Both the position numbers and the translations under genes were made by a program. A DNA stretch of 64,000 bases from Verrucomicrobiota bacterium (GTDB lineage Bacteria; Verrucomicrobiota; Verrucomicrobiia; Opitutales; Opitutaceae), in NCBI GenBank assembly GCA_030604905.1, contig JAUVVA010000001.1, positions 62,001-126,000 on the forward strand, in the 5' to 3' direction. Below, piece by piece: positions 30,857 to 52,075 of this stretch (position 1 is its first letter; every line of letters begins with the position of its first letter). A model generated the notes under the pieces. It had not been told where the DNA came from. It did not search any database and worked only from the letters and a program-made list of their open reading frames with translations.

Positions 30857-30907
30857 GGCGGGAAGGCGATTTAAAATGGTGGCGCCGAGTTCCCGAATGG
30901 GAAGATA

Positions 30908-30950
30908 ATTTGCAGAGATTTGCGTCGATTTGCATGGAAACAATGCAAAG
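30908..30950. promoter_or_regulatory. Three ATTTGC direct repeats phased at exactly 10 bp between divergent genes
   Basis: ATTTGC occurs at 30908, 30918 and 30928, one helical turn apart. It is followed by ATGCAAAG (30943-30950), which carries the inverse GCAA. The array sits in the 128-bp gap between two divergent beta-helix genes (starts 30856 and 30985). ATGCAAAG also occurs at 9629-9636 in another promoter gap. Phasing on one DNA face suggests protein binding, for example by an AraC-type regulator with two helix-turn-helix units per monomer. Confidence 0.6.
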
Positions 30951-30984
30951 AAACGATCGGTGATGAGGCACTCCCATCCCAAAC

Positions 30985-33172: not shown

Positions 33173-34537
33173 ATGAACGAGATTCGCCTCTCCAGTCATC
33201 GTCTCAACCACCGGAGCGAGCTATCCTCGCCTCGCATTCAGGAGGCCATCGACGAGTGTTCGGCCGCCGGCGGCGGTCGGGTTGTGCTCGGTCCCGGCTC
33301 CTATCGCTGTGGAACGATTTTCCTGCGCGACAAGGTCACTCTCCACCTCGAAGCCGGGGCGAGCATCCTTGGCAGCCCGCGCTTGACCGACTACCCGGCG
33401 CCGTTGACGAGCTTTGTCGATGCCGTCGGCGACATCCGCGGCCGCGCCTTGATTCTCGCCGAGGGAGTGCGCGAGGTCGGCCTCACCGGCGAGGGCGTGA
33501 TCGATGGCAACGGCGGCGCCTTCCACCAAGGCACGCCCGAGCATCCGAGTCGTCCTTTCCTTGTGCGGTTGGTGCACGCGCGTGGCGTGACGATCCGCGG
33601 GCTCACGCTCCGGGCCTCCGCGGCCTGGACGGTCCATCTGCTCGATTGCGAGGACGCCGTGGTCGAGGATGCGACGATCGACAGCCGGGTAAACGAGAAC
33701 AACGACGGCATCGACATCGACAGCAGCCGCCGCGTGACGGTGCGTCGTTGCAAAATCTTCACGGATGACGACGCGGTTTGTCTGAAAGCGACGCGGCGCG
33801 AGCCCTGCGAGGACATCCATGTGCACGATTGCGAGCTCTCCACCGAGTGCGGAGCCTTGAAGCTCGGCACGGAGTCCTATGGCGACATGCGGCGCGTGCG
33901 GATGCACGACATCCGCATCCGCTATGCCGCGACCTGCGCGATCAAGGTGCTGACGAGCGACGGCGCGGTGATCGAGGACGTGGAGATTCGCAACGTGAAG
34001 GCGGACCTCACCACCGGACCGATTTTTGTGCGCCTCGGCGAGCGCGGCCGGACCTACGCGAAAGGTGACACCCCGAAGCCCGCGGGCCGCTTGCGCCGCC
34101 TGACGATCGCCGGTTTCCGTGCGAAGGTTTTTCAGCCCAACTCGCCGAGCTTGCAGCATTTCACCAAGGCGCTGATGCCGCCCGAGGCGTTTTCGGGCAT
34201 TTTGATGACCGGCCTACCGCGACAACCCGTCGAGGACGTGGTCTTGCGCGCCTGCGAGATCGAATTGGTCGGCGGCTTCACCGGAGACGCCAGCAAGCTG
34301 AGTCCGCCCGAGCAGCCGGCGATGTATCCGGAGCATTTCTACTTCGGGACTTTGCCCGCTGCTGCGGCCTACCTGCGCCACGTGCGCGGGGTGAAGTTTG
34401 AAGACGTGCGATTCAAGCTCCAGCGGCCGGATGTGCGCCCGCTGGTGGTGACGGACGACGTCGAGGGCTTCGAAACGGACGAGGCTGGAGCTGTGTGCCG
34501 TCCGCAGGAAGCGATGGCGGGCGTGGGTGGCGATTAG
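33173..34537 (+). CDS. GH28-family (polygalacturonase-like) glycosidase, no signal peptide
   Basis: The 454-aa protein is read from the ATG at 33173; the frame is open upstream over the end of the preceding gene but without homology. GH28 beta-helix features are IQEAIDECSAAGGGRVVL, NENNDGIDIDS (catalytic Asp, about 178), TDDDAVCLKA (Asp pair, about 200) and AIKVLTSDG in the place of the RIK motif. The usual GHG histidine motif is absent, with ECGALKLGTESYGD standing there instead, as in some non-polygalacturonase GH28-like proteins. No signal peptide is visible, so it probably trims imported uronic-acid or rhamnose-containing oligosaccharides. The last 14 or so residues read into the decayed hsdR remnant, so the original C-terminus may have been replaced. 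Confidence 0.85.
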   Translation: MNEIRLSSHRLNHRSELSSPRIQEAIDECSAAGGGRVVLGPGSYRCGTIFLRDKVTLHLEAGASILGSPRLTDYPAPLTSFVDAVGDIRGRALILAEGVREVGLTGEGVIDGNGGAFHQGTPEHPSRPFLVRLVHARGVTIRGLTLRASAAWTVHLLDCEDAVVEDATIDSRVNENNDGIDIDSSRRVTVRRCKIFTDDDAVCLKATRREPCEDIHVHDCELSTECGALKLGTESYGDMRRVRMHDIRIRYAATCAIKVLTSDGAVIEDVEIRNVKADLTTGPIFVRLGERGRTYAKGDTPKPAGRLRRLTIAGFRAKVFQPNSPSLQHFTKALMPPEAFSGILMTGLPRQPVEDVVLRACEIELVGGFTGDASKLSPPEQPAMYPEHFYFGTLPAAAAYLRHVRGVKFEDVRFKLQRPDVRPLVVTDDVEGFETDEAGAVCRPQEAMAGVGGD

Positions 34538-35268
34538 GACGAAGACCTCGCCGCACTTGGTCTTGAAGAGCACGCGGTCGTAGGTGTCGGGGAGGTGTTC
34601 ATCGAGCACCTCCTCCACCGCCGTCTCCACCTGACGGCGGGATTGGCCATCCTTGAACCATTCCTGCACGAGGACCCGCGGCTGCGCGGTGGTGAGGCGT
34701 TCGAGCAGAGACTTGGCGGCGAGCTTCACCTTCTTCTCCTCGGCCTGGGTCATCTTCTCCTTCTTGAGGAGGTCGTAGAGCTCGAGTTCGTCTTGGCTGA
34801 GACCTTCGCGAAGGTCGCGCCCGTCCTCCGCGTGCAGGTCGCGGGTAAACTTCAGGAGTTCCTCGAAGTAGCTCTCGTTGGATATGCCGCCGGCGTTGTA
34901 GTTCTCGATGATGGCGTGCAAGCGCTCGACGAAGCCGGCGCGGCCGGCATTTTGGCGAAGCATCTCGCCGAGCTTCTTCTCCACAAAGGCGCCGAGGCCG
35001 GCGATCTCGATGTTGCGGTGCTCGGCTGGCGGAAGTCCTGCCGGAGCTTCTCGAAATCGATTTTGCTCAAATCCCAGGTCTTGCCCTTTTTCGCGATGGC
35101 CAAGGTCTCGCCCGCGCCGGGCTCGGCAAGTGCTTGTCGGTGGCCGGAGCCGTAGGCGAGATCCTCGGGGTCGCTGGTGCCGCACTCGAGAACGTCGTAG
35201 CCGTGCAGGTGTTGCAGCTTTTGCAGCAAGGCCTGCTCGGTCTGGTCCTCGGTGATGTAGTTGGGCAT
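34510..35268 (-). pseudogene. hsdR: hsdR remnant: type I restriction subunit with large internal deletion and a frameshift
   Basis: From the ATG at 35268 the sequence reads MPNYITEDQTEQALLQKLQ then LHGYDVLECGTSDPEDL, a typical HsdR N-terminus. After about 45 residues it jumps near 35130 to the C-terminal region (KTWDLSKIDFEKLRQDF). A frameshift at about 35020-35040 moves the reading to AEHRNIEIAGLGAFVEKKLG, then LSQDELELYDLLKKE and LPDTYDRVLFKTKCGEVF, the HsdR C-terminal helical domain. The nuclease core and both helicase domains, several hundred residues, are missing. The gene is clearly dead. Its end overlaps the 3' end of the opposing GH28 gene. Confidence 0.85.
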
Positions 35269-35307
35269 CGGGCGCTTCCGGAGGAGGCGCGGGCAACTCA
35301 CGACAGA

Positions 35308-36049: not shown

Positions 36050-36116
36050 ATGCTGCCCGCCTACGGGCGGCGGTCTAGAGTTTGTCCTCGGGTTCCTTGA
36101 GCTGGGCTTTGGTCAT
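36050..36116 (-). pseudogene. hsdM: hsdM start remnant with premature TAG
   Basis: From the ATG at 36116 the minus strand reads MTKAQLKEPEDKL-stop-TAAR. HsdM modification subunits commonly begin MTKAQLKELEDKLWxAAD, so the TAG at 36075-36077 replaces the Trp codon TGG, and Leu to Pro is a second change. Homology fades after about 18 codons. With the hsdR remnant about 0.8 kb away on the same strand, this marks a decayed type I restriction-modification operon interrupted by the toxin-antitoxin pair. The match is short, hence the moderate confidence. Confidence 0.6.
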
Positions 36117-36165
36117 GCGCGGGAAGCCCGGAGGTGTGCGGGAGCGGGCGAGCGGGACAAGCCTG

Positions 36166-36182
36166 CCGCGCCGCTGGCGCGG
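36166..36182 (-). terminator. Perfect GC stem-loop downstream of the giant PATR gene
   Basis: CCGCGCC-GCT-GGCGCGG is a perfect 7-bp stem with a 3-nt loop, 34 bp past the stop of the minus-strand gene ending at 36216. No U-tract follows, so it may be a weak terminator or an mRNA 3' end stabiliser rather than a classical intrinsic terminator. Confidence 0.4.
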
Positions 36183-36183
36183 T

Positions 36184-36197
36184 CCAATGATCAACGA
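36184..36197 (-). repeat. Two CCAATGA-type heptads
   Basis: CCAATGA followed by TCAACGA on the plus strand (TCGTTGA-TCATTGG on the minus) are the same heptad family as the six-unit array at 46058-46099. Here they lie in the untranslated 3' region of the same transcription unit. Confidence 0.45.
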
Positions 36198-36215
36198 CCG
36201 GTGCCAGAGTCGCGG

Positions 36216-39200
36216 TCAGGGAATGGTGACGCGGAGGCGAAGAAAGCGGCGGGGGGTAGCGGGGCCAAGGGAGACCGAGTCCGTGACGGTGACTTGCTGG
36301 CCGACGGTGCCGGGGTTGGTGGCGATGATCTGCCAAGATTCGGGGGCGAGCGTGGAGGAGGCTTCGACCGTGTAGGTGAGCTCGGCGCGGGCACGGAGGA
36401 AGGTGAGCGCGAGGGAATGGGGGAGTGTGGGAGCGAGGGAGAGGGTCGGTCCGAGGGAGGGCGCAGTGGGAACGAGGTTGAGCGCGTATTCGAGGAGGTT
36501 GGGGAGGCCGTCGCCATCTGGGTCGGCGAGGTCGGCGGCGGGGCCGGTGTTGGATGTCGTCCCGAAGTGGGTGAGGCGCCACTGCTCGCGGCCCGTGAGC
36601 ACGGTGAGCGGGATGGTCGCGGAGGATTCGAGGCCGGTGAACTGGCTCACCGACATGCGCGAGAGCGCGGCGAGCTCGGAGGCGGAGAGCGCGCGGGTGA
36701 AGAGCGCGGTGTCGTCGAGGCGGCCGTCGAGCCAACGTTCGGGGCCAGAGCCGGTGGTGGAGTTGTTGCCGCCGATGACGAGCGGCGAACTCTGGTTGAG
36801 CGCCCAGGTGAGCGGCGTGGAGGTGGCGGCGAGCGCGCCGTTCAGGTAAAGGCGGACGACGCCGGTGTTGAGCGCCGTGCGCGTGAAGGTAAGGGCGACG
36901 TGGTGCCACGCGCCGGCGCTGGCGGTCGCGGGGGTGACCAGGTCGAGGTCCAGCACGTTGGCGGTGTTGTAGTGGTGGAGACGGAGGGTGTTCGAGTTGG
37001 CGGGGAAGTAGAGGTAGAGCTCGTCGCCGCTGCCGCCGAAGCCGTCCCCCGAGCCGAGATAGAAGACCATGTCGTGGGTGCCGGAGCTGGCGCGGCGCAC
37101 CCAGGTCGCAAAGGTCCAGTCGGCGTCGGAGAGATCGTGGTCGGTGACCGCGAGCGCGCGGGTGACGCGGGCGGCGGCGGTGGCGCTTGGCTGATTGAGC
37201 TGGAGCGAGCTTGAACTGAGGCCGGCGAGAGCGGGCGGGACGTCGGCGGAGAGGCTGCGCGTGCCGGTGCCGACCGTGCCGGTGGTCGCGGTGAGCCGGT
37301 GGCCGGAGAGATCGGCGATGCTGTTGGTGGAGAGAAGATCGTCCTCGTAATCGTAGAGCAGGGCCAGGCGCGAGGGGTCCACGCCCGCGGCGCGGGCGGA
37401 GAAGCGGAAGGAGGCGGCGCCGGGCGCGGCGCCGGCGGTGAAGCGCGCGGTGCGGCCGTCGGCGAGGAGGGAGACGGAGCCGTTGACGGCGTCGCCGACG
37501 GTGAAGGCGAGCGGACCGGGTGACTCGGGGCTGGCGGTGGCGTGAAGGGCGAGGTCGATGTCGAGCGTCTGGCCGGGGGCGAGCGCGAGGGCGGAGGCGG
37601 GCGGGCCGAGGACCGGGGCGGTCTGGACGCTGCGGGTCCAGTTGGTGAAATCGAGAAGCTCGCGGCGGGTGGGGGAGCGGAGGACGAGGGGGCCGGTGGA
37701 GTCTTGGAAGGTCCAGGGGCTTTCCAGGACGGGCCAGGTGTTGAAGTTGAGCGGAGCGCCGTTGTGGCTGATGGGGCGGGTGGCCGGATCGGCCGAGCGG
37801 GCGACCTGCAGGACGTCGCCGCTGCGGCTGGTGTAGGTGGCGAGAGGCGGCGTGCCGGCGGCGCTGGAGGGCGCGGGGCGGGCGAGGACCGCGGCGCGGA
37901 AGGCGGCGAGTTGTTCGGCGGCGGTGGCGGCGGGGAAATCGGCGGGGTGGGCGGTCTCGAGGGCGACGGCGAAGCGGGTGCCGAAGATGCGGAACTCCGA
38001 ATCGCCGGCGTGGGGCGTTTCGGAGAAGAAGGCGACTCCGCCGGCGGGGTTCCACGTGAAGGGCAATTCGGAGCGGATGGCGATCAGGACGCTGCCGTAG
38101 TGGAGGAAGATGGCGCCGGAGCCGGCGGCTTCGTTGAGCACGGCGCGGTAGCCGCCGGGCACGTAGGAGAGGGCGTAGGGGAAGGGGTCGTCGGCGGGGA
38201 TGTCGAAGATGTAGAGGGCGGCGTCGCGCGACTGGGTTTCCTTGTAGTGGGCGGTGTTGCGACCGTGGGGGTTGGAGACGTTGAGGCCGGAGTCGTCGCG
38301 CCAGGGTTTGGCGACCCAAAGGAAGCTGTTGCGCGAGGTGTCGGACTCGGCCCAGACGACGCCGTTGGGGTAAACCTGAAAGTTGCCGACGGAGCGCGGG
38401 CCGTCGCTGAAGAGGATGTAGTCGCGGTCGGCCCAGGCGGAGTGGTGGGCGTTGCCGAGGAAGGCGCGGGAGGCGAAGGCGGTGGAACGGTCGGAGGCGG
38501 CGAGTTCGAGGAGCGGCGAGACGGTTTGGTTCATCACCGCGGTGAAGAGGGCGGCCTCGTTGTTGCGGGGAAAGACGTCGCCGCCGAAGTGGAACCAGAG
38601 CATGCCGAGGGAGCTGATCGGCTGCTGGCGAAGGACGTCGGGATAGCTGCGCGAGGTGGGCGAGCCGAGGTGGCCGCGGAGCCAGGAGTGAACGTTTTGG
38701 GCGAGACCGGCCTCGTAGGCGAGGGAGGCGCGGTTGCGCAGGGCGGGATCGGCGGCGAGTTGCGCGATGCTGAGGATGGGCAGCAGGTTTTTCCAGTAGT
38801 AGGGGCGCGAGGCGTGTTCGCCGAAGCCGCCGCGCACGAAGGCGGCGAGCTGGGTGTTGAGCTCGTTGGCGGCGTTGGGGTCGTTGGCGCGCCAGAAGTT
38901 CGCGATGTTGAGGCTGGTGAAAGCCCCCTCTTCGCCGAAGGCGAGACCGCCGAGGTGTCGGGTCACCCAGGCGAGGGTGCGGAGGTTGGAGGTGACGGTG
39001 TCCTTGTATTGGGTGAAGGTGGTCAAGGACTCGCGGATGTTGGCGAGCGTCTCGGCGTCGAGGTGTGATCCGAAGCGAAGGGCGAGGTCCGCGGCGGGCC
39101 ACATGTCGAAGAGATCCACCTGCACCGGCGAGGAGCGGATCTTGGCGACAAGGGAGCGCGAGCGGGCGAGAGCAAGGGCGCGACCTTCCTCGACTTGTCC

Positions 39201-42155
39201 GCGGGCGAAGGCGGCGGCGGCGAGGACGAAGGCGTCGATGGAGGCGGGGTTGGCGGACGCCTCGGCGAGCAGAAATTCGCGGCGCTGCGCGGCGGTGGAG
39301 ACGGCGGGCAGGCGAATGACGCGGAGGACTCCGGTGCGGGCCAAGTCGGAGCGGTCCCAGATGAGGTCGGCGTAGAGGAAGGGGAGGGCGACGGAGGCGA
39401 AGTCGCCGTCTACGGAAGCGGCGGAAAAGAGCGTGAAACTGTCTCCGGCGGCGAGGGGTTCGCCCGAGAGGGTGATCTGGAGCGTGCCGCCAAGCGTGAG
39501 CGGACCGTGGACGACGAGCCGATCGGAAGCGGGTGTGCCGTTGGATTTGGAAAGCCGGAGCGCGAGCGTGGAGGATGAAGCGAGGATGGCGGAGCCGCGC
39601 ACGGTGAGGGTGGAGGGCGTGCCGGAGAGCGCGGAGGGCGAGAGGGTGCCGGAGAGCGTGAGGTTGCCCCCGAGCGTTCCCGAGCCGGCGAGCGTGGCGC
39701 CGGGGGCGATGGTGAGGGAGGCGGCGGTGGCGGGAGAAGGGCCGGTGAAGACCAGCGTGCCCTCGGCTAGGCTAAGCGCGGCGTTGCCGGTGAGCGGACC
39801 GGAAAACGTGAGGGGTGAAGTGGCGCGCAGTGTGGCCGGCGCGGTGACGGTGAGCGGACCGGAGAGCGAGGCGGGGGCGGTGGCGGAATTGCGGAGCGTG
39901 CCGCCGGCGAGGGTAATGGGCTCGGCGCCGAGCGCCTGGCCGGCGAGATCGAGGGTGGCGCCGCTGGAGACGGTCGTGGCGCCGCTAGTGGCGCCAAGGG
40001 CGGACGGGTGGCCGAGGAGCAAAGTGCCGGACGCCACGGTGACCGGTCCGGTGAAGGTGTTGGCGCCGGAGAGCGTGACGCTGCCGCCGGAGACGGCGAG
40101 CGCGCCCGGGCCGGAGACGGGGTTGCCGAAGTGCAGGGCGGTGGCGGGGGCCGGCGCGAGGGCGAGCGCGGCGGAGTTGGCGACCGGACTGGTGCCGAGC
40201 GCGCCGGTGACGCGAAGTTCGAGAGTGCCGCCGGAGAGGGTGGTATTGCCCGTGAAGGTATGCGGCCCGGTGAGGGTGAGGCGGCCGGCGCCGGATTTGG
40301 CGAGGGTCATGGGACCGGCCAGGGAGCCGGAGCCGGTGAGGGTGTAGTCGGTGGCGGAAGAGACGGTGAGCGATGCGGGGACGAGGGTGCCGAGGAGCGT
40401 CACGGTGGAGTTGGCCCCAGCGGTGGCGTCGAAGAGCACGGCGTCGGGCGTGGCGAAGACGGCGGGCGAGCCGGAGGCCCGGAAGTTGGGCGTGGAGGTG
40501 TCCCAAAGGTTGGCGGAGCCGTCGCCGGCCCAGACGAGGTTGCGCCCGGCGTAGGGATTATTGGATACGAGGACGGAGAGCTCGGTGGAGCCGGCGTTGA
40601 GCTGGAGGGTCGCGATCTGGGTGAGGGAGGTGAAGCCGGTGAGCGAGAGGCCGCCGAGTCCGGAGAGCGTGCCTCCGGTGGAGCGGAGGAGGACGTGGGT
40701 TCCGTTGGGGAGCGAGGAGGGCAGCCGGAGGGTGGCGCCTGGGGCAAAGGAGGCGGAGCCGGAAACGGTGAGCGGCGCGCCGGGGCTGGGCTCGAAGGTG
40801 GAGCCGGCGGCGAAGGCGAGGGTGCCGGCGAGGGAGCCGGAGCCGGCGAGGCTCTGGCCGGAAGCGACGGTGAGGTTGCCGGAGAGGGTCGCGGAGGCGG
40901 CGATCTCGAGGCGCAGGGGGCCGGTGAAGCTGGCGCCGGAAAGAGCGAGGGTGCCGGATTCGAGGGCGAGAGTGCCGGCGAAGGGGTGGGAGCCCGAGAG
41001 GGAGAGGGTGCCGGCCCCTTGTTTCACGAAGCGGCCGGAGCCGGAGAGCGCGGACGACCAAGTGGCGGAGGAGGCGTTGACCACGAGCAGCTCGGCGTCG
41101 ATGAGGACCGGGCCGGCCACGGAGCCGAGGACGCCCGACGTCTCGACGAAGCGTAGGGTTCCGGCGGATACGGTGGTGGGGCCGGTGAACGGATTCTGGG
41201 CGGCGAGGGTGAGGGTGCCGGGACCGTCCTTGGTGAGCGAGGCGACGGCGCTGATGGGGCGGGAGACGGTGATGTTGCCCGCACCGCCGAGGCTGAGGGC
41301 GAAGGGGCCGGTGATCGCGTCGCCGGAGGCGGGGGCGAGGGTGAGCGTGCTGGCGGCGTCGGCGGCGATGCGCGCGGGCGAGCCGAGGGTGAGCAGGCCG
41401 GTCCAGGTGTTGGAGCCGGAGACGGAGCGGAGGGCGCCGAGGGAGGCGTGGCCCGCGCCGTGGAGGGTGAGCGCGCGGGAGACGGTGAGGTTGTTGGCGA
41501 GCGAGAGAGTGCCGCCGGAGTTCACGACGGAGGCGCCGTCGGCGAGGGCGGAGCCGTGGAGGAGGCGGTATTCGCCCTCCTGCACGGTGAGGGTGCCGCC
41601 GGAGGAGCCGATGTTGGCGCCTTGGAAGAGGACGAGGCCGGGGCCGGTTTTGACGAGCTTGGCGTTGCGCGAGCCGCCGCTGTTGATGCCGGCGAGGGTC
41701 AGGGTGGTGCCGGCGGCGGTGTCGAGCGTGACGGTGTTGTTGTAGAAGTCGGGGGAGTTTTGGATCGTGAGCGAGGTGCCGGGGCGGGTGCGCAGGACGG
41801 AGTTGTTAACGAAAATCCGGGTGAGGCTCTGGATGATCACGTCGCCTTCCTCGACGATGACGCCGCCGATTTCGCCGGAGGCGCCGGTAAGGGTGAGCGA
41901 GCGACCGAAGCCGTCCACGCCGGCGGAGAAGACGACGGTGTTGCGCGAGGGGAGGGTGCCGGTGGCGGAGCGGCCGGCGGAGTCGGTGGACCAAGTGGCA
42001 CCAGACCAAGGGTAGGAGCCGGAGACGACGCCGGAGCCTTCGACGGGACCGTTGAGGTCGAAGTGGAAGGGGTTCGCGTGGGCGAGGAGGGGCAGCGCGA
42101 GGGCGGCGAGGCCGCGCCGGAGGCGCCGAAGGACCAATGAAGTGGGGCGAATCAT
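36216..42155 (-). CDS. 1979-aa exported fusion: PATR strand repeats, toroid-like domain, Ig-like, LamG and C-terminal module
   Basis: The ATG at 42155 overlaps the upstream stop (ATGA) and opens a signal peptide ending LLAHA. Residues about 30-940 are autotransporter-associated (PATR) beta-strand repeats, for example KDGPGTLTLAAQNPFTG, KQGAGTLSLSGSHPFAG and KSGAGRLTLTGPHTFTG. Residues about 950-1500 form an aromatic, helix-rich region then a beta region (LDAETLANIRESLTTF, FWRANDPNAANELNTQ, LGMLWFHFGGDVFPRNNEA) resembling a toroid-type polysaccharide lyase. An Ig-like stretch, a LamG domain (about 1605-1838, WHHVALTFTR) and the shared module DPDGDGLPNLLEYALN...PRRFLRLRV (about 1852-1979) follow. 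No beta-barrel is present, so the PATR part is not a classical autotransporter passenger. It is the third gene of a coupled three-gene operon. The catalytic role is inferred only. Confidence 0.85.
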   Translation of the reverse strand: MIRPTSLVLRRLRRGLAALALPLLAHANPFHFDLNGPVEGSGVVSGSYPWSGATWSTDSAGRSATGTLPSRNTVVFSAGVDGFGRSLTLTGASGEIGGVIVEEGDVIIQSLTRIFVNNSVLRTRPGTSLTIQNSPDFYNNTVTLDTAAGTTLTLAGINSGGSRNAKLVKTGPGLVLFQGANIGSSGGTLTVQEGEYRLLHGSALADGASVVNSGGTLSLANNLTVSRALTLHGAGHASLGALRSVSGSNTWTGLLTLGSPARIAADAASTLTLAPASGDAITGPFALSLGGAGNITVSRPISAVASLTKDGPGTLTLAAQNPFTGPTTVSAGTLRFVETSGVLGSVAGPVLIDAELLVVNASSATWSSALSGSGRFVKQGAGTLSLSGSHPFAGTLALESGTLALSGASFTGPLRLEIAASATLSGNLTVASGQSLAGSGSLAGTLAFAAGSTFEPSPGAPLTVSGSASFAPGATLRLPSSLPNGTHVLLRSTGGTLSGLGGLSLTGFTSLTQIATLQLNAGSTELSVLVSNNPYAGRNLVWAGDGSANLWDTSTPNFRASGSPAVFATPDAVLFDATAGANSTVTLLGTLVPASLTVSSATDYTLTGSGSLAGPMTLAKSGAGRLTLTGPHTFTGNTTLSGGTLELRVTGALGTSPVANSAALALAPAPATALHFGNPVSGPGALAVSGGSVTLSGANTFTGPVTVASGTLLLGHPSALGATSGATTVSSGATLDLAGQALGAEPITLAGGTLRNSATAPASLSGPLTVTAPATLRATSPLTFSGPLTGNAALSLAEGTLVFTGPSPATAASLTIAPGATLAGSGTLGGNLTLSGTLSPSALSGTPSTLTVRGSAILASSSTLALRLSKSNGTPASDRLVVHGPLTLGGTLQITLSGEPLAAGDSFTLFSAASVDGDFASVALPFLYADLIWDRSDLARTGVLRVIRLPAVSTAAQRREFLLAEASANPASIDAFVLAAAAFARGQVEEGRALALARSRSLVAKIRSSPVQVDLFDMWPAADLALRFGSHLDAETLANIRESLTTFTQYKDTVTSNLRTLAWVTRHLGGLAFGEEGAFTSLNIANFWRANDPNAANELNTQLAAFVRGGFGEHASRPYYWKNLLPILSIAQLAADPALRNRASLAYEAGLAQNVHSWLRGHLGSPTSRSYPDVLRQQPISSLGMLWFHFGGDVFPRNNEAALFTAVMNQTVSPLLELAASDRSTAFASRAFLGNAHHSAWADRDYILFSDGPRSVGNFQVYPNGVVWAESDTSRNSFLWVAKPWRDDSGLNVSNPHGRNTAHYKETQSRDAALYIFDIPADDPFPYALSYVPGGYRAVLNEAAGSGAIFLHYGSVLIAIRSELPFTWNPAGGVAFFSETPHAGDSEFRIFGTRFAVALETAHPADFPAATAAEQLAAFRAAVLARPAPSSAAGTPPLATYTSRSGDVLQVARSADPATRPISHNGAPLNFNTWPVLESPWTFQDSTGPLVLRSPTRRELLDFTNWTRSVQTAPVLGPPASALALAPGQTLDIDLALHATASPESPGPLAFTVGDAVNGSVSLLADGRTARFTAGAAPGAASFRFSARAAGVDPSRLALLYDYEDDLLSTNSIADLSGHRLTATTGTVGTGTRSLSADVPPALAGLSSSSLQLNQPSATAAARVTRALAVTDHDLSDADWTFATWVRRASSGTHDMVFYLGSGDGFGGSGDELYLYFPANSNTLRLHHYNTANVLDLDLVTPATASAGAWHHVALTFTRTALNTGVVRLYLNGALAATSTPLTWALNQSSPLVIGGNNSTTGSGPERWLDGRLDDTALFTRALSASELAALSRMSVSQFTGLESSATIPLTVLTGREQWRLTHFGTTSNTGPAADLADPDGDGLPNLLEYALNLVPTAPSLGPTLSLAPTLPHSLALTFLRARAELTYTVEASSTLAPESWQIIATNPGTVGQQVTVTDSVSLGPATPRRFLRLRVTIP

Positions 42156-45100
42156 TGGGTGGAGACGCGGAGGCGGAGGAAGCGGCGGGGCGCGTTGGAG
42201 CTGAGCTGGACGGTGTCGACGACGACGACCTCGCCGGCGAGGTTGGCGGCGCCGGTCGAGCTCCAGATGGAGGTCCAGGAATCGGGCGCGAGGGTGGAGC
42301 TGGCCTCGACTTGGTAGATGAGGGTGGGGTCGGCGATGCGGTTGAAAGCCAGGGTGAGCCGGGGTGAGGACTCGCCTTGGGCGGTGACAGGCTCGAGGTC
42401 GAGGACCGGACGGGAGGCAGAGGAAAGGGGCGAGGTGCCGAGGGCGTATTCGATGAGGTTGGCGATGCCGTCGCCGTCGGGGTCGGCGGTGTCGGCGGCG
42501 ACGCCGGTGGCGGTGGTGGTGCCGAAGTGCGTGAGGCGCCAGTTTTGGCGGGCGCTGAGCCCGGGCGGGACGAAGCGGATGTTGTCGAAGACGGCGGTCG
42601 CGGTGCTGCCGCCGGTGCGGGGCGCGACGACGAGGCCGACGCTGAGCGTGGAGCCGCTCATGGCGTTGGTCTGGGACGAATGCTGCGTCCAGTTGATGCC
42701 GTCTTCGGAGTAGGAGGTGGTGAAGGTGTCGCCGGTGCGGACGAGGCGGATCCACTCGGGGATGCCGCGATTGGCGACAGAGCCGTGGAAGAAGTTGGTT
42801 CCGACGGAGGAGCCGTTGGTGGCGGTCTTGTGCTGGAAATTGACCGAGCCGCTCCGGAGGAGGTGGATGGTGCTGTAGCGGGAGCCGGCGCTGGTGTTCT
42901 CACGAAAGATGATGCCGGCCTTGGCGGAGGGGTCGTCCGAGGTAAAGGAGGCGAGGCGGGCGGTGAAGATGCCGTCGCCCTGCCAAGGGATCGAGAGGTA
43001 GGTGTTGGAATCGTTGGTGCCGGTCCAGAGGTCGCCGGTGGCGCCGCCGGACAAGGCTCCGCCGGCGCCGACGATGCGGATGGAGCCGGGCGGGAGAATC
43101 TCAGCAGTGCCGGGCGCGACGCCGGAGGAAGGGTTTATCTGCTGAAGCTGGGAGGGGCCGGGATAGACCGTGACGGTGAAGGACTTTTGCCAGACCTGTC
43201 CTTGGGAATCGGTGGCGGTGACGGTGACGGGGGTGGTGCCGACGGGGAAGAGGGAGCCGGAGGGCGGGTTGGCGAAGGCGGGAGTGGTGTCGGTGAAGCC
43301 GTCGCCGGCGCTGACCTCGAAGTGGACGACGGCGCCGGCGGAGGTGCCGCTGATGGCGAGGTCGCCGGGAGTGGAGATCACGAGGCCGGTGATCGTCATG
43401 GTGCCGGCGAGCGGCGTGTGGGCGAAGGCGGGGTCGTCGATCCATGCGGTGATCGGGTAGGTGCCGGGGAGGCGGCCTTCGCCGACGATGGAGACGCGGG
43501 TGGCGAGGCCGGGCGGGTTGGTGGTGACGGTGGGGGTGCGGACGGAGCCGTTGTAGGTGAGCGAGGTGTTGCCGAGGGTGAGGGTGGCGGTGGGGCGGCC
43601 GACGCTGATGAGGGCGAGGCGCGAACCGAAGTAGGTCGGATCTGCGACGACGGCCTTGGCGGTGTATTGGCCGGGCAAGGACGGGAAGGCGGTCGAGCCG
43701 TCGTAGGTGATGACGGGCGTGAGGACGGGTTGCGGCGAGACGCCTGAGACGTTATAGCTGGCGGTGACGGGGTTGGCCGCGGTCGGCGAGGTGGTGTTGC
43801 CGAGGGTGACGGTGACCGCGTTGCCTTCGGTGATGAGGAGCTGGCCGCTCGCGGAGGCGCTGTAGACGGGGTCGTCGAGGGTGGCTTCGACGGCGTAATA
43901 GCCGGGAGCGGTGGGAAGTTCGGTGGAGCCGTTGTAGGTGACGGTGACGGGAGAGGTGAGGCCCTCGATGGGGAGCACGCCGCGGACGGGCACGGGGATG
44001 TTGTCGCGAGTGACGGCGCCGTTCATGTCGGAGACGTAGAGGCGGCGCACGATCATGGGGGCGAGGAGCCGGTTGGCGGTGACCATGGGCACAAGTTGCG
44101 CCGGTTGTCCGTCGCGGAGGGCGAGGGAGGTGGTGCGCTGCGTGTCCACCTCCAGGCTCATGGTAAGCGGGATCTTCGGCGAGCCGGCGGGGCGGACGGT
44201 GAGCGTCAGGGGCCGGGTGGTGGTGCCGTCGATGTTGCGGACGGAGAGGGTGACGTTGAAGTTTGTGTCGGTGGCGACAACGGGGAGCGTGCCGGAGATG
44301 AGACCGGTGGTGGCGTTGATCGTGAGACCGGACGGGAGGCCGGTGGCGGTGAAGTTGGGCGTGCGGGTGGCGGGAACGACGTTGGAGACGGGAACCTGGT
44401 AGGACCAGGCCGCGCCGGAGGGGGCGAAGAGCTGGGAGGGAGTGCGGATGGTGGGGAGGTAATCGACGCGGGTGGGCGGATTTGCGCGGTAGCGGTGGGG
44501 GTTGCGCGCGGCGCGGAGGCGGGTCTGAAGCTGGTTCTCGTAGAGCGAGCGGACGGACATTCGCGTGCCGTTGGACCATTGCTCGGCTTTGCCGATATGC
44601 GGCGCGGCGTAGGCGAAGGAGCCGGTGGAGGAGGAGTTTCGCCAGGTGGCCGGGCCGCCGTTGACGGCGGTGGTGCCGAAGGACCAGTTCGGCGAGAGGG
44701 GCATGTTCTCGAAGGTGATCTGGTTGGTGACGACGTTCCACGCCACGCAGTAGGCGGCCTGGCGCTCGAGCTTCACTTGGAGGCCGACGGTGGCGTTGAG
44801 TTCGGAGATATTGTCCCAGAGGCCGCCGTTGTTCCAGGTGTTGGCGTGGGAGCCGGACTCGTTGTAAGAGTGAAGGGAGACGCCGTCCACGAAGACGTTG
44901 GGACCGGGGGCGGCGGGCCAGTTGATGACGAAGGTGTGGCGGCCGTAGCGGCCGAGGGCGTTGGTGACGAGGCCGAGCTCGCCGGTCAGGACGAAGCTGT
45001 AGCGGCGGCCACCGATCAGTTGGGAAATGCCGTCGTGTTTTTGGACGCGGTTGAGGGTGATCTTGCGGGTGGAGGTGTTGACGTAGGCGAGGGCGTAGGC

Positions 45101-46114
45101 GAAGTGGCACGCGGTGCAGTTGTGGACGAAGCCGTCCTCGACGTTGGTGAAGTCGACGGCGTTCCAGACATGGTTCTCGTCGGTGTCGTGGGCGTAGCTG
45201 CTCTCGAAGTAGATGTGGGAGACGCCGACGTTGGTGATGTTGTTGAAGGCGGTGACGGGGACGACGTAGCCGATGGCGTAGGCGGGGTCCAAGGGGGAGG
45301 TGAGGGGCGCGTCGAGAGTGATGGAGTTAGCGGTGGTGGCGGTGATGACGCGGTTCATCGTCACAGCGGGATCGAGGTCGGCGGTGGCGGAGGGGTTGAA
45401 GAGGCTGGCCCTTTGCCAGGCGACGGTGCCGGGCCAGCGGACCTGGATGCGCTGGCCGACGCTGAAGGGGTGTCCCGTGATGGGAATGACGTTGGTGCCG
45501 CCGGGGACGTAAACGGGATCAACGTTGGTGCGAGCGGCGGTGTTGACGGTGTTTCCGTTGCCTTGGAAGGCGATGAGGCGGGAGTTGCGGGTGTTGCCGG
45601 AGTTGGCCTCGTTGGTGGTGCCCATGGCGTAGAGTCGGGTGCCGGTGAGCGGGTGGTCGCCCTCGCCGCGGATGACGATGCCGGAGTGGCTGACGCGGAT
45701 GCGGTTGACGGAGTGGATTTCCCAGCGGCCGGCCTTGAGGAGGAGGGCGCCGCGGAAGCCGTTAACGAGGGGGCGGGTGGCGAGCCAGTCGATGGCGGCC
45801 TGGATGCGGTCGGTCTGGTCGCCGGTGCCGGGCGAAAGGGTGACGAGGACGGGGACGGCGTAGCCGCCGGGTTCGTCGGGCAGGGGGCTGTCGCCGTAGT
45901 TGAAGCCGACAGTGGAGAAGTCGGGGATGCGGTCGCCATTGGGGTTCGGCGTGATGAGGATGTTGCCGTCCGGGGTGATGGTGACCGGATTTGGAAACTG
46001 CGGCGTCTGCGCGTGGAGCGCGGCGACACAAAAGGCCGCGCCGAGGGCGCGGAGCGCCCAGTAGCGAATGAGCAACGACCAATATCCAATGACCAATGAA
46101 AGGGTCCGGTTCAT
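42152..46114 (-). CDS. 1320-aa exported beta-helix protein with Ig-like, MBG, HYR-like and C-terminal modules
   Basis: The ATG at 46114 overlaps the upstream stop (ATGA). The signal peptide (about 1-35, ending AALHAQ) is encoded by a heptad DNA array. Residues about 60-550 form a pectate-lyase-superfamily beta-helix, opening with TGDQTDRIQAAIDWLA and GIVIRGEGDHPL. Then come a putative-Ig domain (about 575-640, GLPSGLTINATTGLISGTLP), several MBG-like repeats (TYNGSTELPTAPGYYAVEA), a HYR-like domain (about 928-985), a jelly-roll domain (about 1015-1180) and the shared DPDGDGIANLIEYALG...PRRFLRLRV module. The beta-helix probably binds or cuts polysaccharide; the rest looks like a stalk. No catalytic residues could be assigned with confidence. 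Confidence 0.83.
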   Translation of the reverse strand: MNRTLSLVIGYWSLLIRYWALRALGAAFCVAALHAQTPQFPNPVTITPDGNILITPNPNGDRIPDFSTVGFNYGDSPLPDEPGGYAVPVLVTLSPGTGDQTDRIQAAIDWLATRPLVNGFRGALLLKAGRWEIHSVNRIRVSHSGIVIRGEGDHPLTGTRLYAMGTTNEANSGNTRNSRLIAFQGNGNTVNTAARTNVDPVYVPGGTNVIPITGHPFSVGQRIQVRWPGTVAWQRASLFNPSATADLDPAVTMNRVITATTANSITLDAPLTSPLDPAYAIGYVVPVTAFNNITNVGVSHIYFESSYAHDTDENHVWNAVDFTNVEDGFVHNCTACHFAYALAYVNTSTRKITLNRVQKHDGISQLIGGRRYSFVLTGELGLVTNALGRYGRHTFVINWPAAPGPNVFVDGVSLHSYNESGSHANTWNNGGLWDNISELNATVGLQVKLERQAAYCVAWNVVTNQITFENMPLSPNWSFGTTAVNGGPATWRNSSSTGSFAYAAPHIGKAEQWSNGTRMSVRSLYENQLQTRLRAARNPHRYRANPPTRVDYLPTIRTPSQLFAPSGAAWSYQVPVSNVVPATRTPNFTATGLPSGLTINATTGLISGTLPVVATDTNFNVTLSVRNIDGTTTRPLTLTVRPAGSPKIPLTMSLEVDTQRTTSLALRDGQPAQLVPMVTANRLLAPMIVRRLYVSDMNGAVTRDNIPVPVRGVLPIEGLTSPVTVTYNGSTELPTAPGYYAVEATLDDPVYSASASGQLLITEGNAVTVTLGNTTSPTAANPVTASYNVSGVSPQPVLTPVITYDGSTAFPSLPGQYTAKAVVADPTYFGSRLALISVGRPTATLTLGNTSLTYNGSVRTPTVTTNPPGLATRVSIVGEGRLPGTYPITAWIDDPAFAHTPLAGTMTITGLVISTPGDLAISGTSAGAVVHFEVSAGDGFTDTTPAFANPPSGSLFPVGTTPVTVTATDSQGQVWQKSFTVTVYPGPSQLQQINPSSGVAPGTAEILPPGSIRIVGAGGALSGGATGDLWTGTNDSNTYLSIPWQGDGIFTARLASFTSDDPSAKAGIIFRENTSAGSRYSTIHLLRSGSVNFQHKTATNGSSVGTNFFHGSVANRGIPEWIRLVRTGDTFTTSYSEDGINWTQHSSQTNAMSGSTLSVGLVVAPRTGGSTATAVFDNIRFVPPGLSARQNWRLTHFGTTTATGVAADTADPDGDGIANLIEYALGTSPLSSASRPVLDLEPVTAQGESSPRLTLAFNRIADPTLIYQVEASSTLAPDSWTSIWSSTGAANLAGEVVVVDTVQLSSNAPRRFLRLRVSTQ
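46058..46099 (-). repeat. Six contiguous ATTGGTC-type heptads coding a signal-peptide core
   Basis: On the minus strand the units are TCATTGG, TCATTGG, ATATTGG, TCGTTGC, TCATTCG and CTACTGG, in unbroken 7-bp register. They encode residues 6-19 (SLVIGYWSLLIRYW), the hydrophobic core of the 1320-aa protein's signal peptide. CATTGGT heptads are known as dispersed intergenic repeats in several bacteria; here they are translated. Confidence 0.75.
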
Positions 46115-48750
46115 GGGAGGAGCGTGATGCGCAGCCGCAGAAAGCGTCGGGGCGAAACGGATACGAGGTCCGTGACGGTCACGGTTTCGCCGACTTGGCC
46201 GGGGTTTCTGGCGATGAGGGTCCATGAATTCGGAGCAAGCGTGGAGCTGGCCTCGATCTCGTAGGTGAGCTCCGACGCCGGGCGGGCGCGGTGGAAGCTC
46301 AGTTCGAGGCGCTCCGGTGTAGTGCTTGAGAGACGAACGCGGGGCGAAGCGGCGGGAGTCGGGGACGTGGGCGAACTGCCGAGGGCGTATTCGAGCAGGT
46401 TGGGGAGGCCGTCGCCGTCGGGGTCGGCGTCGAGGGCGGCGGGGCCGGTGGGACTCGCGGTGTTGAAGTAGGTGTGGAGCCAGGACTGCAGCGGGGTGAG
46501 CGGCGGGATGGTGGCGGTGAGCGAGGCGTAAGCGGAGAGTCCGTCGGCGTTGATGGCCGAGACGCGGTAGTCATAGGCGCTGCCGGCGGCTACGGTGGTA
46601 TCGGTGAAGGAGGTGGTGCCGGCGGGGAGCAGGCCGGAGACGAGAGTCCACTGGGCGAAGCCCGCCGGGCTGCGCTCGACGCGGTAGCCGGTTTCGTTGG
46701 TGGCGACGTCGGTCCAGGCGAGGCGAGCCTGGAGGGCGGCGGGGTGGGTGACGGCGAGATTCGTCGGTGCGGCGGGAAGCGAGGGGTTGCGCGCGGCGAA
46801 GGCGATCGGCGACCAGCGCCCGGGCGCGCCGTCGGCGCCGAGCGCGGCGACGCGGTAGTAGTAGGCGATGTTGGAGGGGACGGTGTCGGAGTGGGTGGAG
46901 GCGGTGGCCGACAGTGTGACGAGGTCGGCGAAGCCGGAGTCCGGGGTAGTGGAGCGCTGGATACGATAGCCGAGGGCGCCGTGGATCTGAGACCAGGACA
47001 GGGAGCGGGTGGTGTTGCCCGGGGCGCTTACGGTGAGAAGGGCGGGGGCGGCTTGGGGGCCGGAGGAGCCGACGAGGCGGATCTCGTCGATGAGGGCGGT
47101 GCCGACCGCTTGGCCGGCGACTAGGGCGGAGTTGGAAACAAGCAGGCGGTAGTTGCCCGAGGGGAGCGCGTTGACCAGGGCGGTCTCGACCTCGGACCAG
47201 AAGCCCTGCAGGACCATCGGGATGTGCTCGGCGAAGGGGGTGGAGCTGTCCTGGCTGACGAGGACTACGCCGGGGTAGGTGGTCTGGAGGTTGTTGGCGT
47301 AGCGGTTGAAGGTGAGTTGGAAGCCGCTGGCGTTGAGGATGAGGCGGACATCCTCGCCGCGGAAGGACTTGGTTTTTCCGGCGAAGTCGGGCGCGGCGCT
47401 GTCGCCCCAGAAGGTCTTGTCGGTGGCGGCGAGGGCCATGGGGTGGGTGGCGCCGTGCTCCCAGGTGGCGAGGGTGCGACGCGTGCCGGTGGCGGAGACG
47501 ATTTCCGCGCGGTAAGCGGCGTCGTAGCACCAATACAGATGGAAGCCGGGGCGGGAGGAGACGGGGCCGGTGGAGCCGTCGGCGACAAGGTGGAGACCGA
47601 TTTGCTGATTCTGGCCGGGGGTGGTGGCGTTTTGCGAACGGAGGCGGGCGTCGAGGAGGATGCCGTAATCGCTCTTCCACGCGAATGTGTCGTGGGCCTG
47701 GGCGAGGGCGCCGTCGCCGGCGAGGCGCAGGACCCCGTGGGTGACGGAATTGTAGCTGTAGGTGGTTTCGGATACGTCGCCCGCGAGGGCGCTGAAGCCG
47801 GAGCCGGCGGTGGTGTGGCCGGGGTGGACGTTGGCGGCGAGGAGGCCGTTCTCGAAGCGATCCCAGATGATATCCACCAGCGGGTGGTGGAAAAAGTTCA
47901 GTGCGTCGGTGAAGCTGGGGCCGATCGTGTCGGAATGTCCGCCGGGACGAACGAAGGCGCGGGCGGTGTTGCCGTGGTTGAGGTGGCCCCAGCGGTAGAT
48001 GGCGAGGTTCTCGGCGCGGCGAAAATCGCCGTATTGCGTGAGGATGGCGGTGCGGAAGGAGCGGGGCAGGACCACCGAGGAGCCAAGGCCGAGTTCATAG
48101 TCGGCGTCGGAGTTGGTGGAGTTGGTGCCGGCGGTCTCCCATGCGGGGATGATGCCGGGGATGGAGGAACCGGCGCGTCCGATGAAGCCGCGGAAGTAGT
48201 CGCTGCGCAGATACGCGAGGTCGGAGGCGGTGCGGCCGCCGCCGGAGAGGCCGCCGACGTAAACGCGGGCGGGGTTGAGCGCGTAGAGCTCGGACAGGCG
48301 GAAGGCGCCCATGATGGCGACCCCGCGGCGCGTGTTGACCGATGCCGGGTTGCCGATGTTCAGGCCGCCGAGCCAGATGACGTCGTGGGCGTCGAGGGCG
48401 GCGGCGTAGGCGGTCGGAAAGCTGTGGGCGTCGGCGGCATCGATCCAGGTGACGAGGCCGTAGCGTCGGGTGGAGTCGGCGGCGTCGAAGCCGGAGGGGA
48501 GGCGAACGACGTAGTCCCGGCTGACGAGATCCGTGTTTGAGTAGGCGATGTGGCTGCTGCCGAGCGAGGTGTTGAAGCTCGAGAGATTCTGGATCTGGCC
48601 GAGCTTGAGCGTCGCGGCGGTGCCGGGGGTTAGACTGAGGGGATTGCTGGCGTGGCCGTTTAGGCACGCAGCCAACAGGAACAGGGCCAGCCCCAGCTTA
48701 TGCAGGCGCGGGAAGGGGGAGGCGGGGTGGGGAGCAGGGGCGGTGGGCAC
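46111..48750 (-). CDS. Exported alpha/beta-hydrolase esterase with two FN3 domains and shared C-terminal module
   Basis: The 879-aa protein has a long signal peptide (about 1-36, ACLNGHAS). An alpha/beta-hydrolase domain follows (about 70-300): YVGGLSGGGRTASDLAY holds the nucleophile elbow (Ser near 168) and VRPGGHSDTIG (about 270) a plausible His. Residues about 300-560 form a beta-rich jelly-roll, then two FN3 domains (about 572-655 and 660-745) and the module DPDGDGLPNLLEYALG...SPRRFLRLRI. It is probably a surface carbohydrate esterase. It is the first gene of the operon that continues into 46114 and 42155 through ATGA overlaps. The 130-bp gap upstream carries the GAAATTGC/TTGC element, so a promoter is likely there. 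Confidence 0.82.
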   Translation of the reverse strand: MPTAPAPHPASPFPRLHKLGLALFLLAACLNGHASNPLSLTPGTAATLKLGQIQNLSSFNTSLGSSHIAYSNTDLVSRDYVVRLPSGFDAADSTRRYGLVTWIDAADAHSFPTAYAAALDAHDVIWLGGLNIGNPASVNTRRGVAIMGAFRLSELYALNPARVYVGGLSGGGRTASDLAYLRSDYFRGFIGRAGSSIPGIIPAWETAGTNSTNSDADYELGLGSSVVLPRSFRTAILTQYGDFRRAENLAIYRWGHLNHGNTARAFVRPGGHSDTIGPSFTDALNFFHHPLVDIIWDRFENGLLAANVHPGHTTAGSGFSALAGDVSETTYSYNSVTHGVLRLAGDGALAQAHDTFAWKSDYGILLDARLRSQNATTPGQNQQIGLHLVADGSTGPVSSRPGFHLYWCYDAAYRAEIVSATGTRRTLATWEHGATHPMALAATDKTFWGDSAAPDFAGKTKSFRGEDVRLILNASGFQLTFNRYANNLQTTYPGVVLVSQDSSTPFAEHIPMVLQGFWSEVETALVNALPSGNYRLLVSNSALVAGQAVGTALIDEIRLVGSSGPQAAPALLTVSAPGNTTRSLSWSQIHGALGYRIQRSTTPDSGFADLVTLSATASTHSDTVPSNIAYYYRVAALGADGAPGRWSPIAFAARNPSLPAAPTNLAVTHPAALQARLAWTDVATNETGYRVERSPAGFAQWTLVSGLLPAGTTSFTDTTVAAGSAYDYRVSAINADGLSAYASLTATIPPLTPLQSWLHTYFNTASPTGPAALDADPDGDGLPNLLEYALGSSPTSPTPAASPRVRLSSTTPERLELSFHRARPASELTYEIEASSTLAPNSWTLIARNPGQVGETVTVTDLVSVSPRRFLRLRITLLP

Positions 48751-51800: not shown

Positions 51801-52075
51801 CCTTCGGCGAGGCGGGCCTCCGCGCGGAGGAGATCGCTTTCGCTGAGGCGGACGCGGCGACCGAGGATGTAGCCGTAGCGACTGCCCGGATACACCGCCA
51901 CGCCTTCCGCGATGCGGGATACGGCGAGGCGAACGGAACTCCTCGTGTAAGGCAGGCCGATCTCCTGCGGCGGCGGGGGCCCGGGCGGCGGCTGCGCCGC
52001 CAAGGGAAACGGAAGAAACGAAAGCGCCAGCGTGAGCAGCAGGCGCGCTCCCTGCCCCCGGGCCACGGTTTTCAT
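48881..52075 (-). CDS. Heparinase II/III-like polysaccharide lyase with N-terminal extension
   Basis: The 1064-aa protein is read from the ATG at 52075, which overlaps the symporter stop (ATGA) and opens a signal peptide (LLLTLALSFLPFPLAAQ). Residues about 35-260 form an extra domain (YPGSRYGYILGRRVRL, GRVLVPAAFAAAV, WVDLAAALAARGWTL) resembling a copper-amine-oxidase N-terminal-type stalk. The paralogue signature PPPGVYPRVLLSPEDIPTF (about 275-295) follows, then the toroid and the sandwich loop HHHADAGMFHFSALGVDW (about 735), RPYGIVIDDLQKDD and FRILLLPLRHGDPLP. The HxHxD loop is intact. It is probably the operon's exported uronan lyase, and its coupling to the transporter gene suggests matched production of lyase and importer. 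The frame is open upstream of 52075 but without homology. Confidence 0.86.
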   Translation of the reverse strand: MKTVARGQGARLLLTLALSFLPFPLAAQPPPGPPPPQEIGLPYTRSSVRLAVSRIAEGVAVYPGSRYGYILGRRVRLSESDLLRAEARLAEGRVLVPAAFAAAVALREPVFPPIPDDLALLADRWVYAPSELGVSGPDLEADTPWVDLAAALAARGWTLAPHPAGFWYAGPAPLAFASGEEALVESIVTLFDTPEKFADPAIATRHLPALAAQGPWTDHVKVTPEQLALLDGPPTEWPTAPRSSYDETGIDRSLFGSPVPPPGVYPRVLLSPEDIPTFAARVKASVVGRMSLIEMEHLFAKTWWDPATSDGRVFEKLSTGDLAGLEWDLPAGGLPFAAPHVFKGQRPGITNSHVPYVPECLAAMALYALVQQDDALGRRVAAAFANYYRLREPLLDAFLAISDSEFASSIVLADGTLVPGTGAGAATHWRNIHGVVGNTVLGPGLDLAGRWMNAEEKDLMRRVIAKATYGRRSHGQDGPVRFRDVNWMTWDTPHFLALTAIEGLPGFDREAWAAGAESLRAFCDWGIDPAGVVFESNGKSPGAFGAYFMSLVALARRGENLFAHPHLRRLPEAQALMTSPNGRTIVNSGTQYVPHSRQHLSPGFLLQLKSIYPQNRTIDYLLTQAAAIGTTGPDSPPAPTAAAIVPSAGPFDPAAYRAHIASLRRLRLPSLTYPGFVRNVLFDSDFTPTTRAEAGLPLDFATPVHGVFSAYSDATPEAAWINLQVRPNHYLGAGHHHADAGMFHFSALGVDWITESAFSENYSGNFHNLVLVDGKSQAEAIPGVINGYNAAATWLGASATTDFSHASADLAYAYSWRWNTQPPAVWSAETRALGWEMDPSPEIARIFAGTARYKLRPRWGNYTQSNFIATSRAPYNPMRRVLRQVALVRGPRPYGIVIDDLQKDDQERLYQWSAMLGGHVARAQIAGLPPHAIALASTGRDADFTSSVSASTITPLPGDPLLLLYALAPTPETAPSWSIERLSAPRNRRGDLGYSDQLLASQRGVSATFRILLLPLRHGDPLPRVEFSATTTRATLTLGSQIDQLDLSPLPDASTRLLGRQQLD

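Follow-up and report, generated by a model that had tools for sequence, protein, structure and literature searches.

Verrucomicrobiota and Planctomycetota are polysaccharide degraders with many secreted proteins that belong to no named family, and long beta-helix rods are best known from bacterial surface adhesins. A preliminary description of a 64,000-nucleotide stretch of DNA from a Verrucomicrobiota bacterium (the window hereafter) had pointed to one open reading frame of 1979 residues in which about 900 residues of autotransporter-associated (PATR) repeats run into a helix-rich, toroid-like domain instead of a transporter beta-barrel, and had proposed that the protein could be a new type of surface-displayed lyase with the beta-helix as a stalk or substrate-binding rail. 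This raises the questions of whether such a gene is real, whether the domain behind the repeats belongs with known lyases and what a beta-helix without a barrel may be doing in front of it.

The gene and its domain layout

The frame runs from ATG to TGA with zero internal stops (Table 1). Since the GC-rich sequence of the window contains many long ORFs that arise by chance (for example, a 1013-residue ORF at 36061-39102), length alone is poor proof of a gene of this size. Its GC content is nevertheless 0.906 at the third codon position versus 0.584 at the second, with third-position values of 0.85-0.97 across the five segments that were measured, and a full-length relative was found in another genome (L062, see below). 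This third-position pattern and this relative therefore establish that the 1979-codon frame is a real gene, in agreement with the preliminary description. Its start ATG overlaps the stop codon of the upstream gene (ATGA). The window is itself part of a 134-kb contig from a 4.19-Mb assembly in 234 contigs that is 81% complete.

Table 1. Features of the 1979-residue protein gene and of its two upstream neighbours, with positions in the window
Feature	Residues	Position	Strand	Basis
Whole gene	1-1979	36216..42155	minus	Translation
Sec-type signal peptide (basic n-region, hydrophobic core, AHA cleavage)	1-27	42075..42155	minus	By-eye inference
PATR/autotransporter-type beta-helix, probably two units	28-956	39288..42074	minus	Pfam, TIGR02601, model, fold searches
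Autochaperone-like end of the beta-helix	812-952	39300..39722	minus	VIA match to IcsA 3ml3
Predicted alpha/alpha-toroid domain	955-1221	38493..39293	minus	Model and fold searches
Predicted beta-sandwich domain of the lyase fold	1227-1501	37653..38477	minus	Model and fold search
Ig-like linker, without family match	1506-1600	37356..37640	minus	Sequence
LamG/concanavalin-A-like domain	1667-1829	36669..37157	minus	Pfam
C-terminal module common to the two upstream genes	1841-1979	36219..36635	minus	Sequence comparison
Asn1057 (47/47 aligned, gap in one of 48 rows)	1057	38985..38987	minus	Alignment
Glu1113 (48/48)	1113	38817..38819	minus	Alignment
Tyr1119 (48/48), proposed general acid/base	1119	38799..38801	minus	Alignment and profile comparison
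Arg1169 (48/48)	1169	38649..38651	minus	Alignment
Upstream gene (listed ORF, start uncertain): MBG, He_PIG, C-terminal module; beta-helix lyase-like by eye		42152..46225	minus	Pfam, sequence comparison
Second upstream gene: esterase-like by eye, Pfam fn3 only, same C-terminal module		46111..48750	minus	Pfam, sequence comparison

Pfam detected PATR in four stretches (1.3e-22), and the TIGR02601 repeats of NCBIfam concurred with this assignment. The long repeat region of the preliminary description was indeed all-beta in our structural model, but merely four 30-residue repeats scored singly; similarly, the Ig-like part sits where it had been placed but has no Pfam match. The LamG domain was confirmed by Pfam (4.3e-25), and its region also gave sub-threshold matches to jelly-roll lyases (PF14099, E 0.011; glucuronan lyase 2zzj, E 0.32). 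As described earlier, no beta-barrel is present: PF03797 is not among the six Pfam families that match the protein at E<=1.

The C-terminal module, also part of the preliminary description, does recur in both upstream genes (E 1e-39 for the esterase-like gene; E 1.2e-32, 51% over 133 residues by BLAST, for the adjoining one), with weaker copies elsewhere on the window's contig. When the whole genome was searched with the final 128 residues (E<=1e-5), only the protein itself, the esterase-like gene and one other place matched. In another genome (L045, 8316-15044), a 2242-residue protein that adjoins a giant PATR-toroid protein also has this C-terminal module (1.1e-38), and one of its parts is similar to the product of window 25085-27604.

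Predicted fold and conserved residues of the enzyme domain

An AlphaFold2 model of residues 930-1505, built from a 16-sequence alignment, had a pLDDT of 83.9 and a pTM of 0.86 and showed some twelve helices with a beta domain behind them. When the PDB was searched with this model using Foldseek, ranks 1-12 were all toroid lyases (E 3.0e-6 to 7.4e-3), namely a chondroitinase, GAGase VII, an exo-heparinase, alginate lyases, xanthan lyases and chondroitin AC/ABC lyases, with low TM-scores of about 0.25-0.41 and rmsd values of 9-16; unrelated folds started at rank 13 (E 0.026). VIA found 476 of 995 chains at Z>=2, and the best 50 of these 476 were 49 toroid polysaccharide lyases and one dermatan-sulfate epimerase. 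Among the matches listed, the best was 1c82_A (Z 11.9, rmsd 5.0, 451/576 residues aligned, 7% identity), a Z value that, at this rmsd, is within the range where the tool cautions that a match may reflect a common arrangement in helical models. A Z near 12 alone is not decisive, but we consider that assignment of the predicted structure to the toroid lyase fold class is safe, because both fold lists are uniform and because both domains are covered. The toroid-like domain of the preliminary description, which had recommended a model and a fold search of this very region, thus found clear support; it is also not a domain that Pfam or NCBIfam places in a non-enzymatic family, since neither names it.

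Indeed, Pfam and NCBIfam searches gave no match in the enzyme region of the protein (E<=1), none of 16 family members matched NCBIfam (E<=0.1), and Pfam searches of nine relatives (E<=0.1) returned one fn3 match and none for the enzyme domain. Three weak matches obtained when PDB sequences were searched with the family profile were short unrelated chains, none credible (best E 0.053), and viral contigs scanned with the enzyme domain alone gave no match. By these sequence comparisons, residues 955-1505 are a family that Pfam and NCBIfam leave unnamed. Among the matches listed from the open PMC literature, which does not extend to CAZy, there was no description of this family, nor of PATR combined with a lyase in Verrucomicrobiota.

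Relatives of the enzyme domain were detected in 19 of 387 genomes of the phylum, its own included, and in none of the four congeners listed (E<=1e-5 for both), while a profile search of the class found them in 13 of 93 genomes (E<=1e-8). They occupy 29 named loci, some in Planctomycetota and some in genomes that overlap with the phylum search. The genome that carries the window has two further, more distant matches on contig C56. In a genome of the same taxonomic family (L050, 4431-19569), a 20-kb stretch contains a tandem series of several members, or pieces of members, of the toroid family.

To score conservation, three partial matches below the score/length limit were left out and identical copies were then removed, which reduced 56 rows to 48 non-identical aligned rows spanning Verrucomicrobiota and Planctomycetota. 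Asn1057, Glu1113, Tyr1119 and Arg1169 are invariant wherever they are aligned (Table 1), as is Phe1419 (48/48). Known toroid lyases use a catalytic His, to which the family has no strictly conserved counterpart: the best conserved His in the 48 rows is H1352, found in 34.

We then compared profiles (hhalign) with same-phylum representatives of four families: PL8, PL5-type, DUF4962 and the heparinase II/III N-domain. The enzyme family aligned with 15 Hepar_II_III_N proteins with an E of 4.7e-4 and a score of 43.8 (17.3 for the reversed alignment), to be read as one of four families tried and against a noise level given by a reversed DUF4962 decoy that scored 29.0 (E 0.033). None of 120 shuffled controls run on a preliminary PF16889 alignment reached its score of 35.0, the best being 25.7. 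In the hhalign alignment, Asn1057 falls on a column that is Asn in 15/15 heparinase-type proteins and Tyr1119 on a column that is Tyr in 15/15. Glu1113 precedes Tyr1119 by six residues and the heparinase set has a Glu (15/15) five residues before its Tyr; because the two Glu are two columns apart in the alignment, their equivalence is a guess. Taken as sequence evidence, this link to heparinase II/III is weak, yet specific at two catalytic-type positions.

The other three comparisons gave E values no better than reversed alignments or decoys: 0.82 for PL8, 0.39 for PL5-type (PF05426) and 0.18 for DUF4962 (PF16332). We accordingly rejected profile similarity to the last two and, by the comparisons made, membership of PL8, considering in addition that there was no Pfam Lyase_8_N match and no conserved His on the toroid; a PL8 search of the whole own genome found none. 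Membership of the heparinase Pfam family PF16889, which we take to correspond to PL12/PL21, was rejected as well, with no Pfam match in the window protein (E<=1) or in nine relatives (E<=0.1).

Beyond family boundaries, the heparinase II/III toroid lyases resemble the enzyme domain in their toroid plus beta-sandwich fold, in the coincident Asn and Tyr columns and in a conserved Glu near the Tyr, but 14 of the 15 have a His after this Tyr that is absent from our family, which has the invariant Arg1169 and no strictly conserved His on the beta domain either. The PL8 hyaluronate, chondroitin AC and xanthan lyases gave the top VIA scores (Z up to 11.9, with many other listed rows within 1-2) and have the same two-domain architecture, at a remote distance (Z 11.9, 7% identity). 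Their catalytic set is Asn-His-Tyr-Arg, of which our family keeps the Asn-Tyr-Arg order on a toroid without a conserved His. For the PL40 ulvan lyase Uly1040, the published account describes Asn245 as neutralising the carboxylate, Tyr305 as the acid and His485 as the base, together with Glu301 and a Mn site (PMC12915356). Judging from this description, Uly1040 shares toroid plus beta domains and an Asn/Glu/Tyr set with the enzyme domain, and differs from the family by its His485 base and its Mn site. The Asn-Tyr spacing is 62 in the window protein, 54 in a protein of the heparinase set (L144) and 60 in Uly1040, as given in that account (PMC12915356). We infer from these likenesses that the domain works like the heparinase II/III and PL40 enzymes.

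The genomic neighbourhood and the likely reaction

The gene is part of a fucose-related utilisation locus. Besides GH95, GH29, GH3 and GH28 enzymes, the window encodes esterases of the SASA and alpha/beta-hydrolase types, an SSF transporter and beta-helix proteins; a GH141-insertion match was weak and below cut-off. In L062, the full-length relative is flanked by another toroid gene and by GDSL, GH88 and GH29 genes, and in L068 GH88 lies near a stand-alone toroid. L070 and L073 are contigs from a single genome, and the genes scanned on them include four GH29, one GH95 and one GH97. Using single-sequence searches, GH29 was detected in 5 of the 29 named loci (L061, L062, L067, L070 and L073) and GH88 in 2 of 29, the latter being a lower bound; a search of this kind gave no GH88 on the window's contig, while the own genome has three GH88 matches on other contigs. 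The sugar-locus context is not universal, since the scanned neighbours were housekeeping genes in L077 and mixed in L063. For part of the N-terminal region of the adjoining upstream gene, homologues stand next to toroid genes in L087 and L051. Together with the 1979-codon gene, the two upstream genes probably form a single transcription unit.

At the level of the predicted fold, a lyase reading is well supported. Relatives in L062 and L068 also stand near GH88, and the substrates of GH88 enzymes are unsaturated uronates, the products of lyases. We favour the view that the 1979-residue protein is probably a secreted multi-domain polysaccharide lyase in which the beta-helix spaces or docks the enzyme, and we count against it the fold identity of about 7%, the low TM-scores, the VIA match of Z 11.9 at rmsd 5.0, the lack of a strictly conserved counterpart of the catalytic His, the presence of GH88 in only 2 of 29 loci, the unrelated neighbours of some relatives and the weak overall model of the PATR part. 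Residues 955-1505 would most likely break uronic-acid linkages by beta-elimination, with Asn1057 and Arg1169 as the putative residues that bind the uronate carboxylate and neutralise its charge, and with Tyr1119, aided by Glu1113, as the putative mover of protons. Our best guess for the substrate is a fucose- and uronate-containing polymer; a pectic substrate would also fit with GH28, GH95 and GH29.

Could the toroid scaffold instead carry a glycoside hydrolase or another non-eliminating enzyme? The many hydrolases of the locus and the GH146 and GH127 arabinofuranosidases found lower in the Foldseek list (E 0.027 and 0.2) would be in line with this, but all Foldseek matches down to E 0.0074 are lyases and, where hydrolases usually need two carboxylates, the family has one that is strictly conserved (Glu1113; D1136 is found in 44 of 48 rows), so that we consider a hydrolase unlikely. 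A uronate C5-epimerase, which would use the same fold and proton abstraction without cleaving the chain, appears less likely still: the human dermatan-sulfate epimerase 6hzn_A (Z 9.8 with VIA) is level with many lyases, but several genomes place family members together with GH88, GH29 or GH95 genes in secreted catabolic loci.

Several other genes of the window deserve mention. Four mutually similar proteins or halves (15628-20076, 22543-25005, 25085-27604 and 48881-53470, all on the minus strand) look heparinase-like by eye; their shared part has no Pfam match and similar proteins occur near the toroids of L045, L065 and L075. Three paralogous right-handed beta-helix proteins (7328-9505 and 28655-30982 on the minus strand, 30985-33141 on the plus strand) include the one with the weak GH141-insertion match. 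At 52072-54513 (minus), Kelch repeats that weakly match an NANM epimerase form the N-terminal part of a fusion with an SSF sodium symporter. An isolated type I restriction HindI-like C-terminal segment (2.1e-15) lies in a lower-GC stretch of the sugar locus at 34214-35296 (minus), and a 1183-residue protein at 58067-61618 (minus) has a pilin/PilX-like N-terminal helix by eye and no Pfam match over cut-off.

The beta-helix and its association with the enzyme

The model of the N-terminal part (residues 28-960, from two sequences) was modest, with a pLDDT of 70.2, a pTM of 0.48 and two better segments. Its best Foldseek matches were the autotransporter passengers Hap, IgA1 protease, SepA and Hbp (TM 0.11-0.16). 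With VIA, the closest structure was 7jvi_A (Z 19.4, rmsd 3.7, 313 residues aligned), UpaB and pertactin had Z values of 17.8 and 17.3, and residues 812-952 matched the autochaperone region of IcsA (3ml3; Z 12.9, rmsd 2.9, 132 aligned). Since other beta-helices (tailspikes, PL6 and epimerases) follow at Z 10-14, what is matched is first of all the fold, and a sequence search with the whole protein (E<=10) gave 5 matches that do not include 7JVI.

According to the corresponding reports, 7JVI is CBM89 of CapGH10, a xylan-binding beta-helix located N-terminal to a GH10 xylanase (PMC8810776), and UpaB binds glycosaminoglycans, in its beta-helix groove according to its authors (PMC6488583). These proteins are precedents for a binding role of such a beta-helix, not evidence for that of the window protein. 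Like CBM89 as described there (PMC8810776), the window protein has a predicted right-handed beta-helix in front of a putative catalytic domain, to which it adds PATR repeats and an autochaperone-like end. These two features it has in common with the passengers of type Va autotransporters (pertactin, UpaB, IcsA), from which it differs in that an enzyme follows the beta-helix, without a C-terminal PF03797 barrel. The PATR beta-helix would be an elongated module ending where an autotransporter would put its barrel, probably spacing or docking the enzyme on the polymer or cell surface, with LamG as a second candidate for carbohydrate binding.

The preliminary description had set PATR repeats without a barrel apart from the normal arrangement, but in this genome they are nothing special. 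The 1979-codon gene accounts for four of 40 PATR matches in its own genome, an 81%-complete assembly in which no PF03797 barrel was detected, and PATR proteins that lack a barrel are therefore common enough there. A search of 19 genomes, the own one among them, found PF03797 in 8. The association of PATR with the toroid, for which a search had been suggested, does recur, in 6 of the 48 rows of the enzyme family. The relative in L062, a metagenome genome of subdivision 3, has 2192 residues and the same order as the window protein, PATR then toroid, with identities of 43%, 38% and 43% in three signal/beta-helix parts, 54% at the junction (residues 930-956), 51% in the toroid, 44% in the beta domain and 28% in the Ig and LamG parts. 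Pfam confirmed PATR in L062 and in the L044, L045, L046 and L047 proteins. In the latter four, that is, 4 of the 6 fusions, the best PATR stretch comes after the toroid, and the LamG region of the window protein matches L046 (E 3.8e-52) and L047 (4e-46) directly behind their toroids. Because the PATR position varies and LamG follows the toroid in L046 and L047, these sequence matches indicate that modules have been recombined and that PATR before the enzyme, as first described, holds for the window protein and L062 as one of at least two arrangements.

In a tree of the 48 rows made with a quick method, the window protein groups with L062 (99), and L044 and L045 attach to this pair (93). The six fused rows need two changes on this tree, which 0 of 500 shuffles equalled, an outcome that near-copies favour. 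As the starred branches force just one change, PATR and toroid may have been fused a single time.

Does the toroid still act as an enzyme? A dead toroid, serving as an adhesin or binding domain only on a surface beta-helix, would suit the PATR, LamG and Ig-like modules, which are binding or display parts, and the variable H1352, but we hold it to be improbable, as the Asn, Glu, Tyr and Arg residues do not vary even where fused and stand-alone members share as little as about 20% identity. Another reading is an ordinary autotransporter that lost its barrel, or whose barrel is missing through misassembly in an assembly of 234 contigs, and that was joined to a neighbouring enzyme. It would explain why the autochaperone-like segment ends the beta-helix exactly at the expected barrel position, but it is very improbable and largely refuted by the same junction in L062, by the high third-position GC of all segments and by further PATR-toroid fusions in four other genomes.

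The lyase interpretation of the preliminary description thus gains a predicted toroid lyase fold and conserved catalytic-type residues, whereas the barrel-less repeats proved not to be special and the module order not to be fixed. Going further than a secreted lyase, we tentatively suggest a lyase family with a His-free Asn-Glu-Tyr-Arg site, to which an autotransporter beta-helix, autochaperone end included, would have been co-opted as a polysaccharide-binding rail with the enzyme at the barrel position; Verrucomicrobiota have this pairing in two module orders or more. One unnamed domain hereby gains a predicted fold, a conserved putative active site, a two-phylum distribution and a testable activity. 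Its fusion with PATR suggests that autotransporter-like beta-helices without a barrel may serve as enzyme-carrying binding modules, and barrel-less PATR proteins should not be classed as autotransporters by default.
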